DNA of 64,000 bases from Acinetobacter piscicola (GTDB lineage Bacteria; Pseudomonadota; Gammaproteobacteria; Pseudomonadales; Moraxellaceae). Position numbers and translations under genes: made by a program. Numbering within the stretch: position 1 is the first letter of the stretch; each line of letters begins with the position of its first letter. The notes below the pieces were generated by a model. That model was not told where the DNA came from, did no database searches, and saw only the letters and a list, made by a program, of their open reading frames with translations. Positions 35,620 through 37,721 of the stretch are shown here, one piece after another. The DNA lies in contig NZ_KZ268709.1 of NCBI RefSeq assembly GCF_002233755.1, forward strand, positions 1 to 64,000. Direction: 5' to 3'.

Positions 35620-35753
35620 ATGTGACAGCAAATGCTCATTTTGAGGAGTTTTATTTGGACAAATAATTGAAATTATTTTAACAATCGGAATAAGTATTAA
35701 GTATAAGGATTTTAAACAGAAAAGAAGACGTATCTTTAAATTTTAGACATAAA

Positions 35754-35786
35754 AAAGAAGATAAAGCGTTAGGCTTGATCTTCTTT
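35754..35786 (-). terminator. Terminator of the 29-codon gene
   Basis: On the minus strand AAAGAAGAT pairs with ATCTTCTTT (arms 35778-35786 and 35754-35762) and runs into further T. The first arm lies in the last codons of the small ORF. Confidence 0.7.
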
Positions 35787-35858
35787 CTGACCGTAAATCC
35801 AAGTTGCTGCAATAAAGGTACTAAAAGCTACAACCATCAGGACACTTAACATTGTCAT
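35769..35858 (-). CDS. 29-residue single-pass membrane peptide under a Pho box
   Basis: An ORF of 29 codons. It encodes MTMLSVLMVVAFSTFIAATW followed by IYGQKEDQA: one membrane helix of about 20 residues and a short polar, mostly acidic tail. The gene has everything a real gene needs in order: a Pho box (35903-35920), a -10 (35887-35892) exactly 10 bases on, GAGAAA six bases before the ATG, and a terminator at the stop. I do not recognise the peptide. It resembles in build the tiny helix subunits that join large membrane complexes (CydX, KdpF), but no partner gene is adjacent. A role under phosphate starvation is inferred from the Pho box only. Confidence 0.68.
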   Translation of the reverse strand: MTMLSVLMVVAFSTFIAATWIYGQKEDQA

Positions 35859-35886
35859 ACTACATTTCTCGATTTTTGTTGAAGCT

Positions 35887-35920
35887 ATTATGTAAAAGTT
35901 TTATGACAAATTTATGACAA
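35887..35920 (-). promoter_or_regulatory. Pho box and -10 of the small membrane peptide gene
   Basis: Minus strand TTGTCAT, AAAT, TTGTCAT (35920 down to 35903) is two heptamers with an 11-base period, one base each from CTGTCAT. Ten bases later comes CATAAT (35892-35887), the spacing known for PhoB-dependent promoters, which lack a normal -35. Confidence 0.78.
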
Positions 35921-36194: not shown

Positions 36195-37721
36195 ATGACA
36201 ACTATTATCAAGCAAGATGACTTGATCACATCGGTCAAAGATGCGCTTCAGTTCATTTCTTACTATCATCCACAAGACTTCATCCAAGCGATGAGCCGTG
36301 CTTATGATCGTGAAGAGAACAAAGCCGCAAAAGATGCGATTGCACAAATCCTCATTAACTCACGTATGTGTGCAGAAGGTCATCGTCCAATCTGTCAAGA
36401 TACTGGTATTGTTAACGTATTTGTTGATGTGGGCTTAGATGTTAAATTTGATTTAACCATGAGCTTAGATGACGCAATCAATGAAGGTGTACGCCAAGGT
36501 TATTTAGAAAATAGTAACGTACTTCGTGCATCTGTACTTGCTGATCCTGCTTTTGGTCGTAAGAATACTAAAGACAATACGCCTGCTGTGATTCACTACA
36601 AACTCGTACCGGGTAATAAAGTAGATATCACTGTTGCTGCTAAAGGTGGCGGTTCAGAAAATAAATCTAAACTTGCCATGTTAAACCCTTCTGATTCTAT
36701 CGTGGATTGGGTATTGAAAACTGTTCCAACAATGGGTGCAGGCTGGTGTCCTCCGGGTATGTTGGGTATTGGTATTGGTGGTACTGCTGAAAAAGCCATG
36801 ATGCTTGCAAAAGAATCGCTCATGGAAGAAATCAACATGGACGAGTTACTTCGTCGTGGCCCTGAAAATAAAATCGAAGAACTTCGTATGGAAATCTTCG
36901 AAAAAGTAAATGCTCTTGGTATCGGTGCTCAAGGTCTTGGTGGTCTAACGACTGTTCTTGATATTAAAATCAAAGATTACCCTTGTCATGCTGCAGGTAA
37001 ACCAGTTGGGATGATTCCAAACTGTGCCGCAACTCGTCATGCACATTTCCAACTAGATGGTTCTGGTATTGCACACATTCAAGCACCGAAAATTTCTGAT
37101 TATCCTGAAGTGACTTGGGATTCTTCAAGCTCTAAGCGTGTTGACCTAGACAATATTACCCAAGAAGAAATGAACGCTTGGCAACCAGGCGATACATTAT
37201 TGTTGAACGGTACAATCTATACAGGTCGTGACGCTGCACACAAACGTATGTGTGAAATGTTGGATAATGGCGAAGAGCTTCCAGTCGATCTTAAAGGTAA
37301 ATTTATTTATTACGTTGGTCCTGTAGATCCTGTAGGTGATGAAGTGGTTGGCCCTGCTGGTCCAACAACAGCTACGCGTATGGACAAATTTACACGTCAA
37401 GTTTTAGAAGCAACTGGCTTGTTCGGTATGATTGGTAAAGCGGATCGTGGCCCTACAGCAATTGAAGCAATCAAAGACAACAAAGCGACTTATTTAATGG
37501 CTGTTGGTGGTGCTGCTTACTTAGTGTCTAAAGCAGTTCGTCAAGCTGAAGTCGTTGCATTTGCTGATTTAGGAATGGAAGCAATCTACAAATTTGTCGT
37601 TGAAGACATGCCTGTTTCGGTTGCTGTCGATGTGAATGGTACTTCTATTCATGCGACTGCACCAAAAATCTGGCAAGCAAAAATTGGAAAAATTCCAGTA
37701 GTCGATGCTGCTGCAAGTTAA
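36195..37721 (+). CDS. fumA: Class I (iron-sulphur) fumarate hydratase
   Basis: A 508-residue [4Fe-4S] fumarase that hydrates fumarate to malate in the TCA cycle. The N-terminal alpha domain has MCAEGHRPICQDTGIVNVFV near residues 55-75 with a cluster cysteine. A further cysteine is in PNCAATRHAHF near 277, and the C-terminal domain carries VGPAGPTTATRMDKFT near 387. Length is that of the fused FumA/FumB type. Because the cluster is oxygen- and iron-sensitive, organisms often switch to FumC under iron limitation; fumA here lies among Fur-controlled genes, but I see no Fur box at its own promoter. Confidence 0.93.
   Translation: MTTIIKQDDLITSVKDALQFISYYHPQDFIQAMSRAYDREENKAAKDAIAQILINSRMCAEGHRPICQDTGIVNVFVDVGLDVKFDLTMSLDDAINEGVRQGYLENSNVLRASVLADPAFGRKNTKDNTPAVIHYKLVPGNKVDITVAAKGGGSENKSKLAMLNPSDSIVDWVLKTVPTMGAGWCPPGMLGIGIGGTAEKAMMLAKESLMEEINMDELLRRGPENKIEELRMEIFEKVNALGIGAQGLGGLTTVLDIKIKDYPCHAAGKPVGMIPNCAATRHAHFQLDGSGIAHIQAPKISDYPEVTWDSSSSKRVDLDNITQEEMNAWQPGDTLLLNGTIYTGRDAAHKRMCEMLDNGEELPVDLKGKFIYYVGPVDPVGDEVVGPAGPTTATRMDKFTRQVLEATGLFGMIGKADRGPTAIEAIKDNKATYLMAVGGAAYLVSKAVRQAEVVAFADLGMEAIYKFVVEDMPVSVAVDVNGTSIHATAPKIWQAKIGKIPVVDAAAS

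Follow-up and report, generated by a model that had tools for sequence, protein, structure and literature searches.

Architecture of the minus-strand unit

The question raised by this locus is whether the signals crowded beside a fumarate hydratase gene of Acinetobacter piscicola form a phosphate-regulated gene, and what its very short product might do. The window (the whole stretch of 64,000 nucleotides that was analysed) contains a compact transcription unit on the minus strand, from 35920 down to 35752, in which a Pho box, a −10 element, a ribosome site, an ORF and a hairpin follow one another in this order. These five signals had been predicted in the right order and all of them were found, the terminator overlapping the ORF rather than standing separate.

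The Pho box TTGTCATAAATTTGTCAT (35903..35920, minus strand) consists of two TTGTCAT half-sites separated by AAAT, with an 11-base period, and was assigned by its sequence, its conservation and the presence of the same motif at phosphate genes. The −10 element CATAAT (35887..35892, minus strand) was recognised from its sequence and lies 10 bases past the box without a −35 element, a spacing kept across the genus. Both the heptamers and the −10 element were thus located at the predicted spacing. A Shine-Dalgarno-like GAGA (35867..35870, minus strand), read from the sequence, is weak in the window, and several relatives have GGAGA. The ORF of 29 codons (35769..35858, minus strand; stop TAA) encodes the putative single-helix membrane peptide MTMLSVLMVVAFSTFIAATWIYGQKEDQA, the evidence being the ORF list, homologues, dN/dS and hydropathy. 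At its end a terminator-like, AT-rich hairpin (35752..35788, minus strand) was recognised by predicted fold and conservation. Its 5′ arm is made of the AG-KEDQA codons, which in the window pair with sequence after the stop, and the stop codon is in the loop.

Outside the unit lies its divergent neighbour fumA, encoding class I fumarate hydratase (36195..37721, plus strand), which adjoins the unit in 70 of 74 loci; here 337 bases separate its start from that of the peptide ORF. The other flank is occupied by a convergent gene for an MFS-type transporter. A mechanical terminator scan gave no site at the unit. The scan is blind to this hairpin because the hairpin is AT-rich and part of the T run is inside the stem, and the terminator call rests on folding and conservation instead. 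A sigma-70 scan listed no promoter for the unit either, which is to be expected when a Pho box stands in for the −35 element, and its 4 matches equalled the shuffled expectation (3.8).

A conserved Pho promoter

In Pho promoters the box lies about 10 bases before the −10 element and takes the place of the −35 element. The unit follows this spacing rule, with its box ∼10 bases before the −10 element and no −35 promoter called. When the homologous loci described below were compared, a box with at most one mismatch to TGTCATNNNNNTGTCAT was present in 72 of the 74, the present locus included. The exceptions were L026, whose box is poor (3 mismatches), and the second copy L067. Seventy distinct upstream regions have a box. 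The box is exact in 63 of them, and in all 70 the −10 element lies exactly 10 bases past it (CATAAT in 65, GATAAT in 5). Box and −10 element form a sharply conserved island in these regions, with much less conservation of the bases on either side.

In the genome of the window itself, 37 matches to the motif with up to one mismatch were obtained, compared with 11 for the reversed control, and 34 of the 37 sites, the unit included, were inspected. The one-mismatch motif precedes phoB, pitA, ppx, a glycerophosphodiester phosphodiesterase (GDPD) gene and a porin gene, as named from their first 200 residues (NCBIfam E-values of 5e-86, 2e-50, 7e-72, 3e-24 and 2e-16, respectively; below curated full-length cut-offs). 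Many of the other matches fall within coding sequence and appear fortuitous. Only at the unit does the box plus −10 pattern match exactly in this genome, and base composition predicts about 0.0009 exact copies per genome, with the reservation that the pattern was partly fitted to the peptide family. Allowing at most one mismatch, the full pattern including the −10 element was found in 128 of the 175 genus genomes, at the unit and often at other genes; the reversed control matched none. Under the same reservation, these counts uphold the view that the arrangement is unlikely to be a product of chance.

For A. baumannii olsB a Pho box consensus of CTGTCATNNNNCTGTCAT was used, from which TTGTCATAAATTTGTCAT differs by two C-to-T changes; the same report states that aminolipid formation in A. 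baumannii requires phoR (PMC11828411). The PhoB-type promoter of the original prediction is supported by the motif before phoB, pitA, ppx and GDPD in the same genome and by the fit to the olsB consensus. By sequence, the promoter of the peptide gene is a Pho promoter.

The ORF as a protein-coding gene

Clear homologues were found in 73 of 175 Acinetobacter genomes, the present one included, by single-sequence and profile searches of the same 175, profile-search rows with E above 0.01 being treated as chance. They make up 74 loci, one genome holding two. Because genomes of one genus are related, these counts overstate the number of independent events.

Codon substitutions were compared in 62 distinct coding sequences, a set that collapses identical rows, includes the decayed second copy L067 and excludes L073 for a run of N. 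The dN/dS was 0.196 overall (Nei-Gojobori, pooled pairs), with a mean dS of about 1. By part, it was 0.308 in the helix and 0.084 in ATWxYG. A bias at synonymous sites in other Acinetobacter had been proposed as a check on the ORF, and the ratio of about 0.2 shows purifying selection. Conservation of the ORF relative to its flanks had likewise been set beforehand as a test: ORF and promoter are kept, whereas the surrounding bases and the downstream genes are conserved much less. These patterns argue that the unit encodes a protein and is under coding constraint.

Among 51 distinct proteins, F12, I16, T19, W20, Y22 and G23 are invariant, A17 and A18 are nearly so, and in every one the stretch before W20 is free of charged residues. 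Mean Kyte-Doolittle hydropathy reaches 1.87 in the best 19-residue window, a value that fits the single membrane helix predicted. The polar tail predicted along with it stood only in part as a protein feature, since the hairpin partly dictates it (see below). A helical periodicity of conservation is suggestive only, with p values between 0.008 and 0.15 over six variants of the test and significance not reached in every variant. The charge of the tail is negative or zero in 49 of the 51 proteins and positive in remote members (GKS, GHK), and either membrane orientation is therefore possible.

A hairpin that spans the stop codon

At least seven predicted pairs span the stop codon in 63 of 64 distinct loci (L073 was also left out of the folds, and of the downstream-gene comparison below, for its N run). 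Among the tail codons, those for K, E and D showed no synonymous variation (AAA 46/46, GAA 60/60, GAT 57/57), and codons for T, Y, G and Q nearby do vary. The codon bias of an AT-rich genome may add to this invariance. In seven loci representing six distinct coding sequences (L012, L013, L024, L025, L027, L030 and L071), the coding sequence is two residues shorter at its end, and the stop is still spanned by the fold (weakly in L071). L072 has just GKS as its tail and lacks the hairpin. Conservation of the tail purely as protein was rejected, because the hairpin accounts for the synonymous invariance of the K, E and D codons and the early-stop loci keep the fold. The comparison indicates that conservation of the tail is partly an RNA constraint. 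Because the hairpin constrains it, the KEDQA tail was given no weight as protein conservation, and it is the IAATWxYG core, judged by its substitutions, that counts as proof of protein function. The locus offers a naturally occurring example of a terminator built into the end of a coding sequence, in which RNA and protein constraints are separable.

Such a constraint might be taken to mean that the product is mainly a PhoB-induced small RNA of about 130 nt with a hairpin end, the ORF being secondary or the RNA bifunctional. The size and the hairpin end would fit, and the tail codons lacking synonymous change are what an RNA constraint predicts, again with a possible share of codon bias. Upstream of the hairpin, however, changes are mostly synonymous (dN/dS of 0.08 in ATWxYG and 0.31 in the helix), the promoter is better conserved than the 5′ part of the transcript, and no Rfam match was found in the window. 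A product that is mainly RNA is therefore considered unlikely.

The position of the hairpin could also point to a leader peptide, with ribosomes near the stop masking the hairpin and translation deciding between termination and read-through into the downstream gene. In favour of this, the hairpin spans the stop, and terminators close behind a gene are repressed: in E. coli, a terminator following a gene by a few bases showed almost complete repression, which was explained by ribosome-polymerase coupling, and terminators placed within the first 100 bp of coding sequence were functional (PMC4824070). Against it, what follows the unit varies from locus to locus, with no downstream gene shared by all, and where a crude ORF call found a downstream ORF (67 of 74 loci) it is convergent as often as codirectional (34 versus 33). 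The membrane core is, moreover, conserved as protein. A leader function is accordingly rated as distinctly improbable.

One could go on to imagine that, with the stop codon spanned by the hairpin, a ribosome completing the peptide would open the terminator. The locus would then represent an unrecognised, Acinetobacter-specific family of PhoB-induced membrane microproteins in which the terminator writes the C-terminal tail, and mutual control of translation and termination would determine how much peptide is made in phosphate starvation. This composite picture is put forward tentatively, as an unlikely one.

Distribution of the peptide

A distant homologue, MMTAVLLTIGFVAYTGAVWHYGHK, was found in three more genomes (G084, G100 and G153; E 0.0006), each behind a one-mismatch Pho-like box. 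In one further genome the box and the start codons are present and the ORF enters a run of N. About 100 of the 175 genus genomes gave no clear peptide match in the profile search, and the peptide is therefore not a general need of the genus. In named genomes, a degenerate DNA pattern matched 53 records, 48 of them with Acinetobacter in the name; the species include A. lwoffii, A. schindleri, A. indicus, A. variabilis, A. bouvetii, A. tandoii and A. gandensis. The other five were set aside as chance: none has a box of fewer than three mismatches, four fall within open frames that are 171 to 992 codons long, and the fifth within one of 51 codons.

Beyond the genus, the best match in other genera of the family had an E-value of 0.018 (108 genomes of other genera among 149 searched). 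The order-level search gave one match besides the own genome in 293 (E 0.010), and the class-level search four besides the own genome in 274. In none of these six does a short ORF carry the motif together with a box of under three mismatches; they look like chance and were rejected as homologues. A plasmid-borne copy was also discarded, there being no match in the plasmid collection. Searches of Pfam, NCBIfam and PDB gave no significant family or homologue of known function for the peptide, and no earlier report of it was found in open-licence PubMed Central, including a search with peptide fragments of the family. Annotation readily overlooks genes of this length, and here the product of a strong Pho promoter falls outside every curated family searched.

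The unit and its neighbourhood

Where fumA is not the immediate neighbour, the unit has other surroundings. In G019 about 7 kb lie between the unit and fumA, and in G147 and G148 the unit is beside a glutamine synthetase gene (glnA, named by eye) with its box kept. We also inspected 39 fumA-upstream regions, drawn from the roughly 100 genomes without a clear peptide match (one strand, 900 bases). In 38 of these no box with at most one mismatch was present, and the sole boxed region was that of the genome with the run of N; a two-mismatch site was seen in five of the 39. Box and peptide are thus absent together beside fumA, and they stay together where the neighbour is glnA. A chance ORF is rejected on the basis of this joint absence together with the homologues and the purifying selection.

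In G099 a decayed remnant, AAKWIYAQKGDLA (translated by eye), was found without a box. The second locus of G011 (L067) has neither ATG nor Pho box, retains the hairpin and lies beside an OprD-like porin gene and a PhoD-like gene (named by eye); it is probably a decayed or rearranged copy. In many loci (L011, L014, L015, L018, L020, L026, L068, L069 and others) tandem TCTTCAAA repeats were observed downstream of the hairpin, and neighbouring genes change there too.

Proposed function and comparison with known small proteins

We regard the unit as probably a monocistronic gene activated by PhoB, whose product would be a small single-pass protein of the inner membrane that takes part in the phosphate-starvation response and acts in trans on a membrane partner. 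Phosphorylated PhoB would bind the box in place of a −35 element and recruit RNA polymerase to CATAAT. The transcript would be about 130 nt, carrying the 29-codon ORF and ending at the hairpin that starts inside the last codons. The peptide would insert into the inner membrane as one helix, on which F12, I16, T19, W20, Y22 and G23, with A17 and A18, might dock on the partner, for which a transporter or sensor employed when phosphate is limiting is the likeliest candidate; the peptide would then probably tune a membrane protein when phosphate runs out. Low-phosphate induction, transcript ends, membrane insertion and action in trans are what we infer from the features described above. For an isolated, PhoB-induced single helix with invariant residues, action in trans on a membrane protein would be the simplest reading. 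In a genus of clinical and environmental importance, the gene is a concrete candidate for a regulator in the phosphate-starvation response, and one that is easy to delete.

In the main, the original interpretation is supported. The original prediction knew of no such phosphate-starvation peptide, however. This did not hold, as a PhoB-controlled small protein exists elsewhere. E. coli YoaI (34 residues) is, like the peptide, a small protein under PhoR-PhoB control, and it is reported to activate EnvZ-OmpR (PMC11853020). YoaI showed no significant similarity to the family profile (1.0 bit, reached by 21% of shuffles), and its gene neighbours differ from those of the peptide gene.

E. coli MgtS is regulated by low Mg and is not known to be under PhoB. 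With its 31 residues MgtS is short and hydrophobic with a polar end, like the peptide, and belongs to a nutrient-limitation response; it acts on MgtA and PitA (PMC10710835). A weak FSxFxAA resemblance to the family was noted by eye, and MgtS scored 3.8 bits, with 2.9% of shuffles as high, uncorrected for the five peptides compared. The peptide makes up a new family of a kind already known from YoaI and MgtS. Both may be considered known analogues by mode of action; sequence comparison does not place the family with either of them.

The MgtS comparison suggests a more specific possibility, namely that the peptide is an MgtS-like modulator of the phosphate transporter PitA. MgtS is thought to inhibit PitA in E. 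coli (PMC10710835), pitA has a one-mismatch Pho box in the genome of the window, and MgtS beats 97% of its own shuffles against the family profile. The score of 3.8 bits is nevertheless not significant after testing five peptides. Pit was found in 172 of 175 genomes, so its presence does not track the peptide, and PitA was not retained as partner for want of a co-occurrence signal. The distant-homologue genomes G084, G100 and G153, too, have only weak Pit matches (E 0.0001 to 0.0005). PitA modulation is consequently judged quite improbable. The weak Pit matches of these three genomes contrast with those of nearly all other genus genomes.

KdpF and CydX are like the peptide in size and in having a single helix, and KdpF reached 3.6 bits, a score attained by 7.4% of its shuffles, so that an accessory subunit of a known complex of this sort had to be weighed. 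Their genes, however, sit in the E. coli kdp and cyd operons, whereas the neighbours of the peptide gene are fumA and variable genes, those after it differing by locus. KdpF identity was rejected for lack of a KdpA match in the own genome (G000). CydX identity is unsupported, given these neighbours and a score no better than shuffles, 83% of which reach it. It is very improbable that the peptide is such a subunit. Finally, a small hydrophobic peptide might resemble a type I toxin, and 2 of 51 members matched Pfam Ibs_toxin; the best E-value (0.088) is not significant and gives no ground for an Ibs-type identity. To our knowledge, a conserved PhoB promoter and conserved W, Y and G residues, both present here, would be unusual for type I toxins. 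A toxin-like role is exceedingly improbable, and the trans-acting small protein proposed above is the reading we prefer.

Other Pho sites

Several other Pho sites were noted. In the own genome an exact Pho box plus GCATAGT (L248; G000:C7:143046) precedes a protein with a weak match to the hypothetical family PRK04517 (E 1e-8), and promoter sequences like it recur across the genus. Another small protein (MEMLPLHFNKQVF..., about 80 to 85 residues), which by eye seems to have two helices, was seen in the own genome near G000:C1:551099 (L247) and also at L261, L262, L263, L265 and L267. NCBIfam gave no family for the own-genome copy, and in several species the same type of Pho box as at the unit lies about 130 bases before the start. 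Exact Pho sites of a further kind occur in G014, G016, G044, G045, G062 and G090, and in G015 (L264), the one that was read. From position 352 of that locus on, an exact Pho promoter pattern was observed with no ORF of more than 19 codons within 250 bases and with an inverted repeat by eye, and the site is a possible source of a PhoB-driven small RNA.
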